Origin: Alterileibacterium massiliense
Lineage (GTDB): Bacteria > Bacillota > Clostridia > Peptostreptococcales > Anaerovoracaceae
Length of the DNA: 64,000 nucleotides
Direction: 5' to 3'
Assembly: GCF_900104645.1 (NCBI RefSeq)
Contig: NZ_FNWE01000002.1
Span: 697,289 to 761,288 of the forward strand
Below, one piece after another: positions 1-8,688 of the stretch. Within the stretch, counting starts at the first letter, position 1; every line of letters begins with the position of its first letter. The notes under the pieces are model-generated. The model saw nothing but the letters and a program-made list of their open reading frames with translations. It did no database searches and was not told the DNA's origin. Both the position numbers and the translations under genes were made by a program.

Positions 1-2839
1 AGTAATAGGGCTTAGCGGACGTTTCTCCGGAGCGGAGAATAAAAGAGAATTTCGAAAGATTTTGAACGATAAAAAGGTACAAATATCTGATCCGCCGAAA
101 CATAGGCTGGAATTGGTAAAATTAAACGCTGAAGCAGAATATATGAAATGTGCCTATATAGAGGACATAGAAAGATTCGATAACGACTTCTTTGGAGTAC
201 CTGCAAGAGAGGCAAGGCTCATGAGCCCAGAACATAGAATGAGTTTGGAACTTGTTGCAGAAGCTATTCTTGATGCAGGATATTCGCTTTCTGAATTCCG
301 AGGGTCACTTTGTGGAGTATATATTGCCTGCATAAACAGCGAATACAATCAAATGATTAAGAAACAAAGCTCAACATCAATTATAGGTAGCGAAGCCTAT
401 ATGCTGAGTGGAAGAATCGGATACCAATTTGATTTGAGGGGTTCGAACTACACAATTAACAGTGCTTGTTCATCTTCAATGACAGCACTTAATATGGCGT
501 GTGAGAAATTGACCCTTGGAGAGATTGAAAGCGCAGTAGTAGGAGGAATTACATTATTCATAAATGTTCCAAGAGCTAAAGAAAATATTTACGATGCTAT
601 GGGGATAATATCTGATGACTATACGCTCAATTCCTTCGATCAAAGATCAGACGGAACAGTGATGGGAGAAGGTGGAGCATATGTTTTACTAAAGCCTCTA
701 GATGAAGCAATAAAGGCAAATGATCATATCTATGGGGTAATTGTAAGTGGAGCAGTTAACGGTGACGGAGGACGGTGTTCCAATGTTTCTATGCCTAGTA
801 TGGAAGCTCAAAGAGATGTTGTTATAGATGCTTGGAAAGATGCAGAAATCGAAAATCTAACAGAAGTAGAGACACACGGAATAGGCGCTATGGTTGGCGA
901 TGCCGTAGAAGCAGAGAGCCTTAACAGGGCTGTGAAAAAATATGGACTATCAGATAAGAGACTTCTGATGAGCACTTTAAAACCGAATATAGGCCATCTC
1001 TTTGTTGCATCAGGTATTTCTTCTTTTATAAAGATACTAATAGGATATGAAAACGATGAAACCTATCCGATCGCAAACTTTGAATGCCTCAACGATATGG
1101 TCAACTTTGACGAAAGTGGATTAGAACTTGTACACAAAACATATAAATGGCCAAAAGATTCCAAGAGGATGACGGGCGTGAGCTGCTTTGGGCTTTCCGG
1201 ATGCAATACACATCTTGTCGTTGAGAATTATTTAGAAGAAAGAGATGAAGAGGTAAAGAGTAAAGCAAAGGTTCCTGTAAAGATATCTGCCAGGACAAAG
1301 GAAGCCTTTAAAGCTCAAGCTAAATCAATTACCGATTATATCAGAGAAGAAAACCCTAGATTTGATGATATTACACTTACAATGAACGTGGGAAGAGATG
1401 ATTATGAATATAGAGCTTTGATAGAAGCAGGTTCATGCGAAGAGCTTTCGGATAAATTAGCAAGTGTAGAGCCGTATGAGTTGATTGACGGTGGAGAAAA
1501 AATCCTTACAGTGTGTGCAATCAAGACAACAACGGATGATGTTAATTCGATTTTGAATGCTTGTAGAAAATATGAGGAATTAAAAAAATCAGGCATAAGA
1601 ATAGATTTACTTCTTATAGATAAGGGAATTAAGTCAGCTCTCGAATATATGAAGGGTAAAAAGAGCAAGGATGTCTTCTTAAATGAAATGTCATCAATGA
1701 CACCTGATCTTAATTCTGAAGGGTTTGAAAAGCAGATTGCAAGCCGGCAAAAGAGCGGTGTTAAGACGTTAGTGTTTGATCTTTCGCCAGACAGGCTATC
1801 TTGGAAAAACTCTAGCGATGAATCTATAAAGATAGTATTTTCATCTAAAGATGAGAGCAATATAGAGGTTTTGAATGAATGCTATAAGGCAGGTATGGAC
1901 ATTAAATGGAATAACCTCGTAATTGAGGGTGGGAGGAGAATTTCAATCCCATCATATCCATTTTCAAAAAAGAAGATATGGCTTAAGGATACGGACCTCG
2001 CAATTGAGGATAAAGAAGATTATTCCCTCTCGCTTGTTGAATCAAGGCTTCTTAACACAGTAAAACTACGCGTTGTTTTTGCCTCGTTTGGTGAGAATGT
2101 AGAGAGTGTCAACTTACACAAGGCACCTTACAACAACAGATTGTTCAGGGAAGGGTTTTACCCAGTAACAGGAGCGATAGATGCTGACTACAAATTGGCA
2201 ATGCTCAGGTATATAGAAAAACACAATATTAGACCGGATGTATTTATATCGGACAGGCTAGGACTTGCTATTTATAAGTACTGGAGAGGGTGGATAAATG
2301 ACGAATCACTCAGAGACGCTATATTAAATATGGATTCAGATAGAGAGAGTGAAGTTCATAATGCTAAGGAAAAAATCTTAGACATGTCAAAAGAAGGCCC
2401 TATATTAGTGCTCGATTTTTCCAAAAGCGGATTATTCAAAGAACTCGATACAGGTGAAAACATAATAGTTCTAAATCTTTTTGAAGAAAGGGAAAGACGC
2501 GCTGCAATAGAGGATAGAGGCACCCATGCATTGGGCATTTCAGGGATTGATGAAAACATAGATGTGGATTCATTGAATGAAAAGAGGGATGCTGTAATTG
2601 AAAAAAACGAAGAACAGTTAAAGGCTGAAGAGTTTCTGATGAACCTTTGGTCATCGGCATTAAACATAAATGAGGAGATAAAAAAAGAAGATGATTTCTT
2701 CGCACTTGGAGGTAATTCACTTGTGATGCAGTCAATGTCAGACAAGATAAACGAGCATTTCTCAAAAAAATTCGACATATTTGAAATCTATGATAATGAA
2801 ACGATTGAAAAGCTTGCAGCGACAATACTTGCAGCATAA
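1..2839 (+). CDS. Ketosynthase-carrier protein, AT-less polyketide synthase module (5' end outside window)
   Basis: Catalyses decarboxylative condensation on carrier-bound acyl chains. The reading frame is open at base 2 and the text before the first possible start (TTG at 62) already matches the start of a ketosynthase (IGLSGRF), so the gene begins upstream. Active-site Cys lies in SACSSS (codon 467-469); the two catalytic His are in ETHGIGA and NIGHLF. After the ketosynthase there is a linker (VPVKISARTKEAF), then about 150 residues where an acyltransferase would be but no GHSxG is seen, then the usual post-AT linker ending SYPFSKKKIWL. About 190 residues (roughly 2000-2560) match nothing I know. 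A carrier domain ends the protein, with the phosphopantetheine Ser in GGNSL (codon 2717-2719). The missing AT suggests a trans-acting acyltransferase or direct loading by a partner ligase. First visible gene of a tight operon. Confidence 0.85.
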   Translation, partial: VIGLSGRFSGAENKREFRKILNDKKVQISDPPKHRLELVKLNAEAEYMKCAYIEDIERFDNDFFGVPAREARLMSPEHRMSLELVAEAILDAGYSLSEFRGSLCGVYIACINSEYNQMIKKQSSTSIIGSEAYMLSGRIGYQFDLRGSNYTINSACSSSMTALNMACEKLTLGEIESAVVGGITLFINVPRAKENIYDAMGIISDDYTLNSFDQRSDGTVMGEGGAYVLLKPLDEAIKANDHIYGVIVSGAVNGDGGRCSNVSMPSMEAQRDVVIDAWKDAEIENLTEVETHGIGAMVGDAVEAESLNRAVKKYGLSDKRLLMSTLKPNIGHLFVASGISSFIKILIGYENDETYPIANFECLNDMVNFDESGLELVHKTYKWPKDSKRMTGVSCFGLSGCNTHLVVENYLEERDEEVKSKAKVPVKISARTKEAFKAQAKSITDYIREENPRFDDITLTMNVGRDDYEYRALIEAGSCEELSDKLASVEPYELIDGGEKILTVCAIKTTTDDVNSILNACRKYEELKKSGIRIDLLLIDKGIKSALEYMKGKKSKDVFLNEMSSMTPDLNSEGFEKQIASRQKSGVKTLVFDLSPDRLSWKNSSDESIKIVFSSKDESNIEVLNECYKAGMDIKWNNLVIEGGRRISIPSYPFSKKKIWLKDTDLAIEDKEDYSLSLVESRLLNTVKLRVVFASFGENVESVNLHKAPYNNRLFREGFYPVTGAIDADYKLAMLRYIEKHNIRPDVFISDRLGLAIYKYWRGWINDESLRDAILNMDSDRESEVHNAKEKILDMSKEGPILVLDFSKSGLFKELDTGENIIVLNLFEERERRAAIEDRGTHALGISGIDENIDVDSLNEKRDAVIEKNEEQLKAEEFLMNLWSSALNINEEIKKEDDFFALGGNSLVMQSMSDKINEHFSKKFDIFEIYDNETIEKLAATILAA

Positions 2840-2848
2840 GGAGGATTT

Positions 2849-4372
2849 ATGAAGACCAGTTCTATTTTACGAGATTCTTTATGCGAGAGCATAATCGATA
2901 TGGTAAAAATTCAGGCAGAAGAAAATGGGGACGAAATTGCAGTATATACGAAAAAAGACTCTATTAATTACAGAGAACTGATTGAAAGAGCTTCGATTAT
3001 TGCCGGATATATGAAAACCATTGGAATAAAGAAAGGTGACTTCGTGATACTTGAAGCAGTATCTGATATTTCATATGTGCTCACATACCTTGCAATTCAG
3101 ATAGTAGGGGCTATAAGCTCACCTGTTGAACGCGGAGTCCAGCTTGAAAAGCTCGAATATGAGATAAGTCTTGTCGGTGCCGTATATTATTTTTCAAGAA
3201 ATGACAACAGAATAAAATCTGCACCTACTATGCACTATGATGAGCTTTTAGCTGAGGCAAATGACTGGAATTTGCCACTTGAGTATGAGAGACCACTTCT
3301 TAGCGATATAAGAGAAGTGATTTTTACAACGGGAACAACGGGAAAATCAAAAGCTACACTTCATTCAACTCTAAATATTGAGACAAATACTGTAAACACG
3401 GTAAAGGGAATAGGAATAAACAGTTCTGATATAGTTCTAATTCCTCTTCCACTAAACCACTCATTTGGTATGAGAGTCCTTAGAGCTGTGTTCTCAGTGG
3501 GAGGGGCGGTAGTCCTTCAGAGTGGAGCTGTTTTCTCTAGTGCAATTATAGAAAATATCAGAAAATTTAACTGTACTGCTATGGCTTCAGTTTCTGCGAC
3601 AATGGAGTCTGTAATAAGGGAGATTGGAGAGGAAATGGTAAGTAAAGAATTCTCCTCACTAAGATACATAGAGTTCAGTGCAGGTGCTGTTTCCGTTCCT
3701 CTTAGAAAAAAATTGCTAAAGCTTCTTCCAAATACAAGACTCTTTAATACTTGGGGTTCATCGGAGAGCGGAGGTTGCGTCTTTATGGAGTTCAGCAAGA
3801 GATCTGATAAGATAAATGCCTTAGGTGTGCCGATAAATGGTATTAGACTAGGCATTTGGTCGGACGAAAAAAACGATTTTCTGAAGGGATGCGGGAAAGA
3901 GAAAATTGGTAGACTTGCCATAAAGGGTAATATGATCTTCAGCGGCTATCTGCACGAGGACAATAAGTATAAGGAATCCGTTGACAAGGGTTGGATGAAA
4001 ACTGCAGATCTCGTGTGGCGAGATGATGAGAACTTTTACTACATCCTAGGTCGTGCTGATGACATTATAAATGTAGGTGGAGAAAAGGTTGCTCAGAGGG
4101 AGCTGGAAGATATTGCATCGCTCATCCCTGGAATTGAAGACTGTGCATGCATAGGAATTGAAGATAAAAGCGGGCTTCTAGGACATATTCCTGTTCTCTA
4201 CTATACAGGTAGCGTGGAAATCGATGAAGAGGCGGCAAAGGGAGTTTTTGTCAAGAAAATTGGAAACATGCTTATGCCCAGAGAATACATTCGAATAGAG
4301 GAAATACCTAGAAATTATATGAAGAAAAAAGATTATAAGGCATTGAAAAAGATATACGATGGAAACAATTGA
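2849..4372 (+). CDS. AMP-forming acyl/amino acid ligase
   Basis: Stand-alone class I adenylate-forming enzyme of 507 residues that activates a carboxylic acid as acyl-AMP and passes it to a carrier protein or CoA. Visible core motifs: the phosphate loop FTTGTTGKSKATLHS, WGSSESGG, KTADLV, the hinge GRADDIINVGGEKV, and a terminal lysine motif near NYMKKKDYKAL. AAGGAGGA sits just before the ATG, 9 bases after the preceding stop. It ends without a carrier domain, so it probably loads the carrier of the ketosynthase protein or of the ligase-carrier protein further on. The substrate cannot be read from the sequence. Confidence 0.85.
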   Translation: MKTSSILRDSLCESIIDMVKIQAEENGDEIAVYTKKDSINYRELIERASIIAGYMKTIGIKKGDFVILEAVSDISYVLTYLAIQIVGAISSPVERGVQLEKLEYEISLVGAVYYFSRNDNRIKSAPTMHYDELLAEANDWNLPLEYERPLLSDIREVIFTTGTTGKSKATLHSTLNIETNTVNTVKGIGINSSDIVLIPLPLNHSFGMRVLRAVFSVGGAVVLQSGAVFSSAIIENIRKFNCTAMASVSATMESVIREIGEEMVSKEFSSLRYIEFSAGAVSVPLRKKLLKLLPNTRLFNTWGSSESGGCVFMEFSKRSDKINALGVPINGIRLGIWSDEKNDFLKGCGKEKIGRLAIKGNMIFSGYLHEDNKYKESVDKGWMKTADLVWRDDENFYYILGRADDIINVGGEKVAQRELEDIASLIPGIEDCACIGIEDKSGLLGHIPVLYYTGSVEIDEEAAKGVFVKKIGNMLMPREYIRIEEIPRNYMKKKDYKALKKIYDGNN

Positions 4373-4374
4373 TA

Positions 4375-5133
4375 ATGAATATGATTGACAGCAAATGGAT
4401 ATATGGAGCTGATAACAAACCGTTATCAAAGGTTAGATTGTTCTGCCTTCCTTATGCAGGGTGCGGCTCATCCATGTATATATCGTGGAAAAAATACTTT
4501 CCTGAGGAGGTTGAGCTTTGCCCAATTCAATTACCAGGAAGGGAGAACAGGAGAAAAGAAGACTTATGTTGCAATCTAAGACTTTTGGTCGACGAAATGG
4601 CTGAAGGAATTGCAAGCTTTCTAGACAAACCTTTTGGAATATTCGGATACAGCATGGGAGGAGTAATAGCGTATGAGTTAGCTCTAAAGATAAAGGAGAA
4701 ATATAAGAGGTCTCCGTTCGTGATCTTTATGGGAGCATCGACGGTTTTTATGGACTTAGATAATGTAAGCGGGATGAAGGAAAATGAACTAAAGAAATAC
4801 TTGAACTTTATAGGCGGAGCTGAACTATCGGAACTGAACAATCCCAGCTTTCAGGAAGAATTTTTTCCTGTGATAAGGAATGACTACAGGATGATTGAGA
4901 GCTATCACTTTAATTTCACACCTGCACCATGTAGAATATGCAGTTTTGCATCAAAAGAAGACTGCGCTGTACCTTTTCAAAATATAAGTCTATTAAAGTT
5001 TTTAACAGATGAATTCAGCCTAATAACAATGCGCGGTTCGCATTTCTTCATTCGTGATGACGAAAGGGAGATCACCAAAACAGTTTTGATGCATTTAAGG
5101 AAAGGAGCATTCTTGGATGGAATTTCAATATAA
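4375..5133 (+). CDS. Type II thioesterase
   Basis: Alpha/beta hydrolase of about 250 residues like the editing thioesterases of PKS and NRPS clusters (GrsT/SrfD type), which clear stalled or wrong acyl groups from carrier domains. The start region (LFCLPYAGCGSS) and LPGRENR are typical of the family. The nucleophile is the Ser of GYSMGG (codon 4651-4653) and the catalytic His is in RGSHFF (codon 5041-5043). Three starts are possible: TTG 4369, ATG 4375 and ATG 4381. ATG 4375 is chosen because TTG 4369 overlaps the previous stop and none has a strong ribosome site. It overlaps the next gene by 17 bases. Confidence 0.85.
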   Translation: MNMIDSKWIYGADNKPLSKVRLFCLPYAGCGSSMYISWKKYFPEEVELCPIQLPGRENRRKEDLCCNLRLLVDEMAEGIASFLDKPFGIFGYSMGGVIAYELALKIKEKYKRSPFVIFMGASTVFMDLDNVSGMKENELKKYLNFIGGAELSELNNPSFQEEFFPVIRNDYRMIESYHFNFTPAPCRICSFASKEDCAVPFQNISLLKFLTDEFSLITMRGSHFFIRDDEREITKTVLMHLRKGAFLDGISI

Positions 5134-7087
5134 TACAATATGTGAATCATTTATGGCGAAAGAATCGGATGAGAAAGAAAAAAATCAATTGAAGTTTCTT
5201 GGACATAATGGTGAAGTTATTGGGATGAGTTATGAGGAGTTAAGACATAAGGCTGTTTCTATAGCTAAGGAGATTTCAAGCTTTATAGATCCACATGACA
5301 GGGTTATCCTATCAGTAACAGAGCCATCATTATATATACCTTTCTTCTGGGCAATACTTATTTCGGGTGGAACTGTAGTTCCGTTTTTTTGTTCAGTTGA
5401 AAGCCTATCGATGAAAAACGATGCAGATGCAAATAAACTAAAGATAATAACGAGGATAAGCAAGGCGAATAGCATAATTGTAACGGAAGATAAGATAGAC
5501 ACAATTGAAGAGATAATTCCAAATATAGAAATAAAAAGCACTGATGAGATTTTATCATCTGTAAACAGGGACGATGCTGATTATGAAAAAGAGCCGAGAT
5601 ATATTCCAAAGGTCAGCGATCTTGCCATGATACTATTTACGTCAGGCAGCACAGGTGATCCCAAGGGAGTTCCTTTTACACATGGCAAACTGCTTAAGGG
5701 AATACTGATAGACCAGAGTGCTTTAGAATATACAGATAAAACGAGATTTTTCAACTGGTTTCCAATGGAACATGTTGCACCTCTCAATTTATTTCATATC
5801 TTGCCACTTCTTCTTCGTGCTGAACAGGTTCATATAAAATCGGAGGAGGTCCTACAAGATCCGAAAGCTTGGCTTAAATTCCTTGATAAATTTAAACCCT
5901 CTGTTACATGGGCACCCGATTCGATATTCTCTGTACTTATAAGGCAGAGAGAAGAGATAGATAATATGGACATTGATCTTTCATCGCTAAGGGAAATAAT
6001 AAATGCCGGTGAAATGATAAATTACAGAAATTGCAAGGAGTTCCTAGAAATTATTAAAAACAAGGGCTGTAAAGAGGTTCTTATGCTGCCTTTTTGGGGA
6101 ATGACTGAAGCGGTAGCGGGTATTACAATAACCAGGGCAATGGGAAAGATAAGCAAGGGGAATATAATATCTGTCGGTAAAGCAATAGATGGATTCCAGC
6201 TTCGTATAGTGGATGATCAAGGGGAGGTCATAAACGAAGAGGGTGTGGAAGGAGAAGTTCAGGTAAAGGGAGAACCTATATTCGATGACTATATCAACGA
6301 TGATATCAACGGGGAATTTCAGGACGGATGGTTTATAACAGGAGATATAGGGTCATGGATTTCAGGAGAGCTTGTGTTAACGGGTCGTAGCTTTGACCGC
6401 CTTATTGTAAACGGTGTAAACTATTCAGTTCCAGCAATTAATCAGAAGATTGAAGAATACTGCAATGAACGAGGTTACAGCAATACTATATGTGCAATAG
6501 CTTCAATTAACGAGGACTCAAGGCGAGACGAACTTATAATTTTCATAGAAGTAGAAAATGAAAATAAAGAGATAAAAAAAGATCTTTATGGATTAATAAG
6601 AGAGGGATTTAAATCCTTTTCAAATATTATGTGTAAAGAAATAGTATTTGTTCCAAATGGAGAAATTCCAAGAACATCAATAGGGAAGATAAAGAAGAAG
6701 GATTTACATAGAAGGTTTAGAGAAGGATTCTACGAAGAAAATTCAAAAGATATAGAATCAAAAGCAGATAAACATAGAGAGCCTGGAGAGATTTCAGAGG
6801 AGGAAAGACTGCTTGGACTGATCTTTTCAGAAGTGTTAAATATAAAAGAGGAAGGGCTTAACCATAGTGCAAATTTTTTTGAAATTGGGGGGACCTCCGT
6901 TCTGGTTCCGATGCTCTTGAAACACGTTTTAAATATGTTCAAGGTCAAGATAAGTCCTATGGAATTTGTAGAAAACGCCGATGTAAAAAGCCTCATGAGC
7001 TTTATAAATTATAAGAAGGCTGATATGGAAGATATGGCAGACATATCAGACATAGAGGAAGACCTGTGCGAAGTAGTAGTTATCTAG
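5117..7087 (+). CDS. AMP-forming ligase fused to C-terminal carrier domain (FAAL-like loading module)
   Basis: A 656-residue loading protein that adenylates an acid and transfers it to its own carrier arm. Motifs: phosphate loop FTSGSTGDPKGVPFTHG, FWGMTEAVAGI, ITGDIG, hinge GRSFDRLIVNGVNY, and TSIGKIKKKDL near the end of the ligase. The carrier domain follows at roughly residues 560-640, with the phosphopantetheine Ser in IGGTSVL. The spacing resembles ligases that start fatty-acyl-primed or hybrid PKS/NRPS lines (FAAL type), but the FAAL insertion was not verified. An acidic tail closes the protein. AAGGAAAGGAG precedes the ATG inside the thioesterase gene. With the ketosynthase protein this gives two carrier domains in the visible operon. 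Confidence 0.82.
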   Translation: MEFQYNTICESFMAKESDEKEKNQLKFLGHNGEVIGMSYEELRHKAVSIAKEISSFIDPHDRVILSVTEPSLYIPFFWAILISGGTVVPFFCSVESLSMKNDADANKLKIITRISKANSIIVTEDKIDTIEEIIPNIEIKSTDEILSSVNRDDADYEKEPRYIPKVSDLAMILFTSGSTGDPKGVPFTHGKLLKGILIDQSALEYTDKTRFFNWFPMEHVAPLNLFHILPLLLRAEQVHIKSEEVLQDPKAWLKFLDKFKPSVTWAPDSIFSVLIRQREEIDNMDIDLSSLREIINAGEMINYRNCKEFLEIIKNKGCKEVLMLPFWGMTEAVAGITITRAMGKISKGNIISVGKAIDGFQLRIVDDQGEVINEEGVEGEVQVKGEPIFDDYINDDINGEFQDGWFITGDIGSWISGELVLTGRSFDRLIVNGVNYSVPAINQKIEEYCNERGYSNTICAIASINEDSRRDELIIFIEVENENKEIKKDLYGLIREGFKSFSNIMCKEIVFVPNGEIPRTSIGKIKKKDLHRRFREGFYEENSKDIESKADKHREPGEISEEERLLGLIFSEVLNIKEEGLNHSANFFEIGGTSVLVPMLLKHVLNMFKVKISPMEFVENADVKSLMSFINYKKADMEDMADISDIEEDLCEVVVI

Positions 7088-7776
7088 ATACATTGGATGT
7101 ATACGTGTTTAAAGATTTCGATGGCATATCGATAGAAGTTCTAATGGATAGGTTCTCAAAACTTCCAAGCTCCTGGAGTGGAAACGTCAAAAGGCTCAGG
7201 TATGAAAAGGATCAGAAGACAGCTATAATCGCAAGACTTCTACTGGCTTATGCATTAATAAACAGTGATTACAAAATAAGCATAGATTCATTACCTGATT
7301 ATTCATTTGGAGAGTTTCGAAAGCCTAAGTTTGATAAGGAATCATTATCATTCAATTATTCTCATTGCAAGGCGGCAAGCATCTGTGCCATAAGTAAAAA
7401 AAATGTTGGAGCTGATATTGAAGGACTTGATATAGATATCGAAACACTTAGCTTGGCTGTAAAATCTGTAGCAACATCGGAAGAATGGGAAGCATTAAAT
7501 GATGAAAACGGTTCTAAGGTGGACCTTCTCAGATTATGGACAGCAAAAGAGGCATATGGAAAGTGGCTAGGAGTCGGTCTCAGATACGATTACAAAAACA
7601 AGCCTTTTATAGATGTATTAAAAAAAGATTGCAATAAAAATCTAAGAATAATTAAGTTAGAGGACGAAAAAAATCTATACTCAGTACATAATCAAGGGAT
7701 TGTCTTCAGCATATACGGAGAGGGAAGCCTTAACATAGAGGAAATAAGCTGGGATGAGCTCATTAAAAAAATATAA
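7066..7776 (+). CDS. Sfp-type 4'-phosphopantetheinyl transferase
   Basis: Transfers the phosphopantetheine arm of CoA to the Ser of carrier domains, turning on the two carriers encoded upstream. At 236 residues it has the two-lobed Sfp size. The magnesium/CoA motif is GADIEGLD (usual GxDIE) and the second motif is WTAKEAYGKWLG (usual WxxKEAxxK). The start is GTG at 7066, inside the previous gene (22-base overlap), pointing to translational coupling. It is the last gene of the operon; the next gene has its own promoter. Confidence 0.85.
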   Translation: MRSSSYLDTLDVYVFKDFDGISIEVLMDRFSKLPSSWSGNVKRLRYEKDQKTAIIARLLLAYALINSDYKISIDSLPDYSFGEFRKPKFDKESLSFNYSHCKAASICAISKKNVGADIEGLDIDIETLSLAVKSVATSEEWEALNDENGSKVDLLRLWTAKEAYGKWLGVGLRYDYKNKPFIDVLKKDCNKNLRIIKLEDEKNLYSVHNQGIVFSIYGEGSLNIEEISWDELIKKI

Positions 7777-7781
7777 AAAGC

Positions 7782-7810
7782 TTGATATTAACAACTTAAT
7801 TATATATAAT
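7782..7810 (+). promoter_or_regulatory. Sigma-A type promoter of rpsB-tsf
   Basis: TTGATA at 7782-7787 and TATAAT at 7805-7810 are separated by exactly 17 bases, a near-consensus vegetative promoter. It lies just after the biosynthetic operon and 130 bases before rpsB, so transcription would start near 7817. Confidence 0.85.
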
Positions 7811-7941: not shown

Positions 7942-8688
7942 ATGTCAGTAGTTTCGATGAAACAATTATTAGAAGCAGGTGTTCATTTTGGTCATCAGAC
8001 AAGGAGATGGAACCCTAAGATGGCACCATACATTTTTACAGAGAGAAATGGAATCTACATCATAGATCTTCAGAAGACAATAAGAATGGTCAATGATGCG
8101 TATAATTTCGTTAAAGAAGTTGCAGCAGAAGGGCGTCCAATTCTTTTTGTAGGAACGAAGAAGCAGGCTCAGAATGCAATCGTAGACGAAGCAAAGCGTT
8201 GCGGAGAATTTTATGTAAATGAGAGATGGCTTGGAGGAATGCTAACAAATTACAAGACCATCAGTGCAAGAATTGATCGCCTTAATCAGATTAATGAAAT
8301 GGAAGAAGATGGAACTTTCCAGAAATTAGTTAAAAAGGAAGTAATAAAGCTTAAGGCAGAGAGAGATAAGCTTGAAAAATCTCTTGGTGGTATCAAGGAT
8401 ATGAAGGGTATGCCTGGAGCAGTATTTGTAGTAGACCCTAAGAAGGAAAAGATTGCGGTAAAGGAAGCTAGAATTTTAGGAATACCAGTAGTCGGAATGA
8501 TAGATACAAACTGTGATCCTGACGATGTAGATTATGCGATCCCAGCTAATGACGATGCGATTAGAGCGGTTAAGCTTATAACCTCGCTAATGTCAGATGC
8601 TATTATTGAAGCTAAGGAAGGCGAATCTCAGGATGTTAGCGAAGAAACAGAGACAGTAGATTTAGAAGAAGAAAAGGTAGAAGAATAG
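7942..8688 (+). CDS. rpsB: 30S ribosomal protein S2
   Basis: Ribosomal protein S2 of the small subunit. The start [22 protein letters not shown] and the internal [11 protein letters not shown] and DTNCDPD are diagnostic. Length 248 residues, with an acidic C-terminal tail common in clostridia. GGAGG precedes the ATG. It is co-transcribed with tsf, 36 bases downstream, the standard rpsB-tsf order. Confidence 0.98.

Follow-up and report, generated by a model that had tools for sequence, protein, structure and literature searches.

How might a type I polyketide synthase (PKS) be fed with extender units in a genome that shows no source of them? Type I PKSs are taken to need malonyl-coenzyme A (malonyl-CoA) from primary metabolism together with an acyltransferase (AT), and the 1.45 Mb genome of Alterileibacterium massiliense (two contigs) shows neither, yet an operon with a type I ketosynthase lies at the start of the 64,000-nucleotide stretch analysed here (G000:C1:697289-761288; the window). 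Its eight plus-strand genes encode, in order, an ABC ATPase, an FtsX-type permease, a stand-alone condensation (C) domain, a ketosynthase (KS) joined to an acyl carrier protein (ACP) domain, a free-standing AMP ligase, a type II thioesterase (TE), an adenylation (A) domain joined to a carrier, or thiolation (T), domain and a phosphopantetheinyl transferase (PPTase), and are followed by rpsB; Pfam confirmed the domains of all eight proteins. The window start cuts through the operon, and the last five genes lie in bases 1-7776. We regard it, with high confidence, as a dissociated hybrid of non-ribosomal peptide synthetase (NRPS) and PKS that has lost its AT.

A preliminary description of bases 1-7776 had called this a minimal AT-less polyketide/lipopeptide-like operon with two AMP ligases and its own PPTase. 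The parts that it listed, one KS, two ligases, two carriers, a thioesterase and a PPTase, were all found by Pfam (KS PF00109, E = 5.8e-56, with PF02801; AMP-binding proteins, E = 2e-48 and 4.4e-42; carriers, E = 8.5e-11 and 4.5e-7), and it was right that no reductive domain is seen, as models for ketoreductase (KR), dehydratase and enoylreductase domains gave no match at E ≤0.01 in this span. The absence of an AT, the two ligases and the dedicated PPTase therefore stand, but the operon is not minimal, since a C domain and an exporter lie upstream: following the sequence beyond the window start, as had been proposed, lengthened it by about 4.5 kb (three more genes and 20 bases of the KS gene). 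The upstream genes fit no recognised cluster, so that the locus did not turn out to be the end of a known, characterised one. The lipopeptide label was not borne out: none of the eight genes was seen to encode an A domain marked for an alpha-amino acid, and it is the A-T didomain of McyG to which the carrier-bearing ligase comes closest.

The KS-ACP protein P0001 (952 aa; 1-2839, plus strand, its first 20 bases upstream of the window; Pfam and alignment) begins with a KS at residues 4-367, in which the catalytic set is intact (Cys163 in SACSS, His299 in THGIGA and His339 in NIGHL). Downstream of it come a KS-to-AT linker (residues 435-495; 1283-1465; RhiE/CurL-like linker models), a shrunken region, a post-AT linker ending in YPFSKKKIW (1883-1981; alignment and profile), a formerly unassigned segment and the ACP domain (LGGNSL, residues 885-949; 2633-2827; Pfam). 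The earlier picture of linkers around a shrunken, motif-less AT region was thus upheld, as the KS-AT linker and the post-AT motif flank a region without a Pfam match. No PF00698 match was obtained in P0001, which lacks an integrated AT as trans-AT PKSs do, and the carrier serines are present in the carriers of the operon. The closest relatives found are KS-ACP proteins of Ruminococcus flavefaciens (locus L051), [Clostridium] polysaccharolyticum (L052) and R. albus 8 (L064); in an alignment of P0001 with these three, Cys163, His299 and His339 are invariant across the four family members.

The supply of malonyl groups was addressed by searching the same genome for four families. The KS of the operon was the sole match to PF00109 (14 of 14 controls positive); PF00698, which would detect FabD or any AT, had no match at E 0.1 (controls 10/14), and neither PF01039 (the carboxyltransferase of acetyl-CoA carboxylase and relatives; controls 12/14) nor PF08541 (FabH; 13/14) was found. 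Since neither a FabD or other AT nor a carboxyltransferase was found, a KS that requires malonyl-ACP lacks both the transferase and the malonyl-CoA source on which such enzymes usually draw. Two facts speak against a genuine lack of supply: the search was confined to these four families, with FabG, FabZ, FabI/K and MatB left aside, and genome completeness is given as 89.5%. They leave room for ordinary trans-AT loading, in which the enzymes that make malonyl-CoA or load it would have escaped the family searches or be encoded in an assembly gap. Genes for type II fatty acid synthesis and acetyl-CoA carboxylase often lie in one cluster, and one gap, for example between neighbouring rRNA operons, could hide them all. 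We nevertheless judge this quite improbable. All four contig ends lie within rRNA operons, which makes gaps a less likely cause of the missing genes; the ends fit a chromosome broken at its repeats alone, unseen sequence between two rRNA operons being the less likely possibility. The four families are absent, this KS aside, with positive controls, and the only AcpP-like gene seen stands alone, outside any fab cluster (by eye). Moreover, PF00698 was found in 49 members of the relatives set and missing from 12 (61 genomes in all, the own one counted); G004, whose completeness is 100%, is among the 12, so that this genome is not alone in lacking the family.

Besides the two carriers of the operon and the lone AcpP-like gene, three more were found in the same genome, in AMP-ligase/membrane-protein cassettes, which makes six carrier proteins or domains in all. 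These cassettes (L042:5052-9475, L044:4094-8502 and L045:8018-13323) each comprise an AMP ligase, a small carrier and Dlt/MBOAT/DltD-like membrane genes; their carriers were found by family search, and the AcpP and Dlt/MBOAT readings were made by eye. Beside one of them, at L044:8545-12408, lie several genes with repeated W/Y/G motifs that resemble choline-binding cell-wall repeats (by eye).

A genome with no AT or FabD, FabH, other FabF-type KS or carboxyltransferase found would also suit a KS that does not elongate at all, and simply relays the acyl chain on the P0004 carrier to the ACP domain of its own protein, after which the C domain would form an amide or ester and malonyl groups would be unneeded. 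The usual HGTG motif reads HGIG in P0001, which fits such a role; isoleucine stands at this position in 7 of 110 motif matches in the fetched loci, those seven being P0001 itself in five overlapping loci and the relatives from R. flavefaciens and [C.] polysaccharolyticum. In KSs that do not elongate, the first histidine is usually missing. Here, in contrast, Cys163, His299 and His339 are intact and invariant in the family, and the two relatives with HGIG sit in longer NRPS/PKS loci; we therefore consider it improbable that this KS is retained for transfer alone.

What the KS would elongate depends on the adenylation-carrier protein P0004 (5117-7087, plus strand; Pfam and structure-sequence matches), which is of the McyG/keto-acid type without a KR or C domain and carries its T domain (IGGTSV, residues 569-629) at 6821-7003 (Pfam). 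It matched the McyG A-T didomain (PDB 4r0m) with 283 bits over residues 25-631, a full-length didomain match, compared with 186 bits for the keto-acid module of StsA and at most 109 bits for fatty acyl-AMP ligase structures; the best NCBIfam models were fatty-acyl ligases, at 181 and 178 bits under cut-offs of 572 and 600. In the pocket, Val220 aligns with McyG Val227 and StsA Ile306, and Met329 with StsA Met415. In the accessible part of PMC11253843, the Val/Ile position is described as replacing Asp235, which holds the alpha-amino group, and the Met position as a conserved proline in amino-acid A domains. The residues at these two positions suggest that P0004 probably takes an acid without an alpha-amino group. 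The valine alone does not exclude an amino acid and to that extent tells against this assignment, because McyG, which has it, is listed as an L-Phe enzyme in the same part of that source. Homologous A domains in all three relatives (L051, L052 and L064) sit within C-A-KR-T proteins, the layout of depsipeptide modules that load and then reduce a keto acid; P0004, by comparison, has neither C nor KR, and a separate gene encodes the C domain here.

The free-standing AMP ligase P0003 (2849-4372, plus strand; Pfam, NCBIfam) is of the acyl/aryl-ligase type, lacks a carrier and is encoded directly after the KS-ACP gene. Its closest relatives found were those of R. flavefaciens (40-41% identity by alignment) and [C.] polysaccharolyticum (35-36%), in both of which the ligase gene also lies immediately 3' of the KS-ACP gene. 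An assignment as an alpha-amino-acid A domain was not supported by its family matches. In our own pocket mapping Ser205 stands where amino-acid enzymes have Asp235, and an arginine occupies the position of pocket residue 239, as in 4 of 49 acyl-type motifs by a crude count; the two residues would fit a substrate without an amino group, perhaps an anionic one.

From these parts we infer a mechanism in which the PPTase would prime both carriers and P0004 would load a hydrophobic acid without an alpha-amino group (an alpha-hydroxy, alpha-keto, aryl or acyl acid) onto its own carrier. The KS would accept this acyl group and condense it with an extender on its own ACP, charged by P0003 with malonate or a malonate-like acid taken up by the cell. 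The stand-alone C domain would then join the beta-ketoacyl chain to an alcohol or an amine, mis-loaded groups would be removed from the carriers by the thioesterase, and the FtsX-type ABC exporter would secrete the product. P0003 is proposed as the extender loader since neither an acyltransferase nor an acetyl-CoA carboxylase is visible; that it charges the ACP is suggested by the gene order kept in two other genera, by the lack of a visible alternative in the genome and by a pocket without the amino-binding aspartate. This loading is the weakest step, with no malonate signature behind it, and several observations weigh against it. Judged by curated models, P0003 is no MatB: PRK07514 ('malonyl-CoA synthase', cut-off 558) gave 134.8 bits, fewer than the models for long-chain ligases (217.5) and MenE (170.6). 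The same arginine occurs in a ligase of G004 that adjoins MBOAT/DltD-like genes, and so is no signature for malonate. The ligases of the R. flavefaciens and [C.] polysaccharolyticum relatives (L051:7883-9901 and L052:15761-17806) are fused to a nitroreductase-family domain that is absent from the eight genes here; one narrow literature search found no paper on an AMP ligase-nitroreductase fusion beside a ketosynthase. Synthesis and export of a small acyl-ketide product by the operon, with the extender loaded as proposed, is thus put forward tentatively, and we hold it with somewhat less than even confidence.

With respect to G004, its ligase (L150:9167-10696; neighbouring genes read by eye) was the sole other P0003-like ligase at 1e-80: ligase profile A2 matched two of 398 genomes of the phylum at this threshold, own genome included, with at most three candidates per genome scored. 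G004 is also one of the genomes without PF00698.

The same set of domains could work in the order of the reutericyclin/mutanocyclin pathway. P0003 would then provide an acyl-CoA or acyl-AMP, the C domain would couple the acyl group to an alpha-hydroxy (or similar) acid on P0004, and the KS-ACP protein would add a malonyl unit from an unseen source before the thioesterase or spontaneous cyclisation freed the product. The combination of C, A-T, KS-ACP, TE and PPTase matches MucD and MucE as presented in the accessible part of PMC10161427, where the Muc C domain is placed in a starter clade as a proposed decenoyl-CoA user and malonyl is loaded in vitro by a separate transacylase. The relatives, too, carry C-A-KR-T and then KS-ACP. 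On the other hand, the A domain of P0004 lacks the alpha-amino aspartate, the TE is a separate type II enzyme rather than a fused one, and malonyl supply would still be missing. In addition, the ligase is unlike a chain starter in both relatives that have it, because in [C.] polysaccharolyticum its gene lies downstream of an NRPS whose first domain is an A domain, and in R. flavefaciens the C domain is preceded by a carrier. We consider this order of steps unlikely, though a serious candidate.

The region between the AT linkers may bear on how the ligase might find its ACP. The shrunken region (1478-1882, plus strand) was defined by alignment with the three relatives and is copy 1 of a presumed AT remnant. 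The segment of about 190 residues before the carrier (residues ~690-880; 2048-2617, plus strand) had been noted as unassigned and is still without a known domain (no credible Pfam match; best E 0.12). Judged from profile and alignment, it is probably the post-KS region present a second time in decayed form. A profile built from the linker-to-linker regions of the three relatives only, one copy each, scored 30.1 bits on copy 1 over residues 531-667, the post-AT linker included, and 16.5 bits (E = 1.6e-4) on the segment (2171-2485), where the best of 500 shuffles of the segment reached 4.6 bits; the alignment covers most of the segment. A tighter, linker-free profile gave 16.7 bits for residues 731-835 of P0001, and against 985 open reading frames (ORFs; overlapping loci included) it found no match outside the family at E ≤0.01. 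Against a duplication, the linker-free profile gave copy 1 just 4.4 bits, so that copy 1 is placed by the alignment with the relatives, and when the segment was compared by BLAST with residues 1-690 of P0001, copy 1 was not hit (the matches, at E 0.26 and worse, lay in the KS part). In a direct BLAST against four sequences the segment matched the L052 relative (E = 5e-7), but not those of L051 and L064. The link between the two copies therefore runs via the relatives.

The presumption that this region is an AT remnant comes from its position between the pre- and post-AT linkers and is no more than hinted at by its sequence. The block IKPDLLLAD / IRPDVFISDRLG occupies the position of the acyltransferase GIKPDVVMGHSxGE. 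A profile of 59 motif-picked AT regions, duplicates kept, gave 0.8, 4.1 and -2.2 bits for L051, L052 and L064, -0.5 for copy 1 and -2.0 for copy 2, compared with -2.0 to -0.7 bits for three unrelated control segments. Shuffles scored at least as high as the real sequence in 4, 2 and 226 of 400 cases for L051, L052 and L064, in 11 of 400 for copy 1 and in 44 of 400 for copy 2, with 250-330 of each 400 shuffles receiving a score; AT identity by sequence alone did not reach significance in this comparison. With hhalign against at most 22 cis-ATs the probability was 6-9% (P 0.004-0.006), and for copy 2 alone 1.4% (P 0.036). After the family, the linker-free profile scored best among the 985 ORFs on proteins of L047 (E 0.018 for the whole protein, 0.17 for the best domain) and L062 (0.031 and 0.079), in each case on the AT active-site block; two PDB matches, at E 0.14 and 0.22, were a KSQ-AT chimera and a chain of a type I modular PKS. 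Designed PPR repeats that top the PDB list (E = 2e-10) were set aside, as they add up about ten tiny repeat scores, each with an i-Evalue >100; a profile of residues 486-952 again matched carriers, post-AT linkers and PPR proteins. We entertain as unlikely, but worth stating, a type I module working in a cell without fatty acid synthesis, malonyl-CoA:ACP acyltransferase or acetyl-CoA carboxylase, in which a dedicated AMP ligase would charge the ACP directly with the extender and the doubled remnant would dock this ligase instead of the vanished acyltransferase.

The distribution of these proteins was surveyed in several collections. Aligning P0004 with two McyG-like proteins and scanning genome contigs gave 378 stretches, of which 352 were confirmed and the best 80 kept, corresponding to 79 loci. 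A relative of P0001 at 388 bits or more occurred in three of them (L051, L052 and L064), the next best scoring 319 bits; further members of this group may exist, as only the best 80 stretches were considered. The same contigs scanned with P0001 alone gave none. P0001 matched 6 of 99 relatives at 1e-20 and, in its KS part only, 9 of 393 genomes of the order at 1e-60; P0002 matched 2 of these 393 at 1e-15, and profile A3 matched 16 of 391 genomes of the class at 1e-100, all four counts including the own genome. No match but the own one in the class sample extended past position 545 of the 811 in profile A3. Thus, no full-length relative of P0001 was found in the 393 order genomes, the 391 class genomes or the plasmid collection, where two candidates per genome were scored in the order and class scans and PKS-rich genomes may hide one. 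Among plasmids, P0001 matched 700 records and P0002 84, none covering 80%, whereas 11 of the 16 records matched by P0004 covered 80%, all at <60% identity.

The other genes of the operon lie in the same direction as the KS gene. Upstream of the window, sequence and Pfam placed the ABC ATPase at L002:10763-11470, the FtsX-type permease (778 aa) at L002:11467-13803 and the stand-alone C domain, which carries SHxxxD, at L002:13804-15240; within it, the type II (editing) thioesterase (GYSMGG; Pfam E = 2.3e-29) occupies 4369-5133 and the PPTase P0006 7066-7776, both on the plus strand. P0006 is of the Sfp type (Pfam E = 6.1e-12; PF01648 at 46 bits, cut-off 25), with GADIE and WTAKEA corresponding to the GxDIE and WxxKEA motifs. 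Adjacent genes overlap or sit at most 30 bases apart, which argues for a single transcript of all eight. It probably ends before a promoter-like site at 7782-7810 (plus strand; 11 of 12 positions), a weak prediction as 8 such sites were found against 5.7 expected by chance; rpsB starts at 7942, and no terminator-like site was found. An origin as foreign DNA was not supported by base composition (37.7% G+C in the in-window part of the operon, against a mean of 34.7, sd 2.7, in 28 2-kb pieces of the rest). A helix-turn-helix regulator-like gene and a 295-aa HipA-like gene lie upstream of the operon (L002:2613-3953, by eye). A second PPTase of 186 aa, Sfp-like by eye, is encoded at L046:8568-9125; it is the sole other PF01648 match in the genome besides P0006, and no separate AcpS was seen. 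A lysine riboswitch (101 bits) lies close to a contig end at L151:8912-9080.

The operon would be a natural test case for the replacement of both malonyl-CoA supply and acyltransferase by an AMP ligase, and its usual building block may need an unusual supply. If the proposal is true, free acids could feed polyketide synthesis directly, which would be of use in extender engineering, and fatty-acid auxotrophs would have a means of building acyl natural products from scavenged acids; if not, an apparently competent KS may be retained for transfer alone.

Each single part of the operon is of a known kind. P0001 resembles the KSs of PDB 7zma, PksL (5erf) and RhiE, which we take to be trans-AT enzymes and several of which are among its best-matching solved KSs, in having pre- and post-AT linkers without an AT. 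Between these linkers P0001 has about 140 residues, compared with about 40 in 7zm9 (manual count), plus the second copy. The stand-alone AT that defines trans-AT PKSs was found neither in the operon nor in the genome, so that we do not file the operon among them without reservation. P0004 is free-standing, whereas McyG, the start of a PKS protein of microcystin synthetase in the accessible part of PMC11209926, has a loading didomain (4r0m) that heads that protein. The mutanocyclin/reutericyclin line, as far as it is laid out in the accessible part of PMC10161427 (MucD, C-A-peptidyl carrier protein; MucE, KS-ACP-TE, AT-less), shares with the operon one C domain, one A-carrier unit, an AT-less KS-ACP, a TE and a PPTase. 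It differs in that here the domains are split over four genes, the TE is of type II instead of fused, and a free AMP ligase is present; its A domain activates leucine, whereas Val220 and Met329 of P0004 speak against an alpha-amino acid, although McyG, listed as an L-Phe enzyme, shares the valine, and the acetylation genes mucA-C of the mutanocyclin cluster have no counterpart by Pfam among the eight genes. The L051, L052 and L064 proteins are 34-37% identical to P0001 by alignment, have a similarly placed enlarged region between the AT linkers and are all preceded by a gene with a McyG/keto-acid type A domain; they differ in having one copy of the remnant region each, against two in P0001, and in being part of longer NRPS/PKS loci, and in the R. 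albus 8 stretch no P0003-type ligase was seen (best 87 bits). The novelty lies chiefly in the lack of a visible malonyl supply, and further in the probable second AT remnant and in the free ligase that accompanies a KS-ACP without an AT. By function, then, the operon resembles the AT-less mutanocyclin/reutericyclin NRPS-PKS line in so far as that source describes it, and by sequence it groups with the loci of R. flavefaciens, [C.] polysaccharolyticum and R. albus 8.

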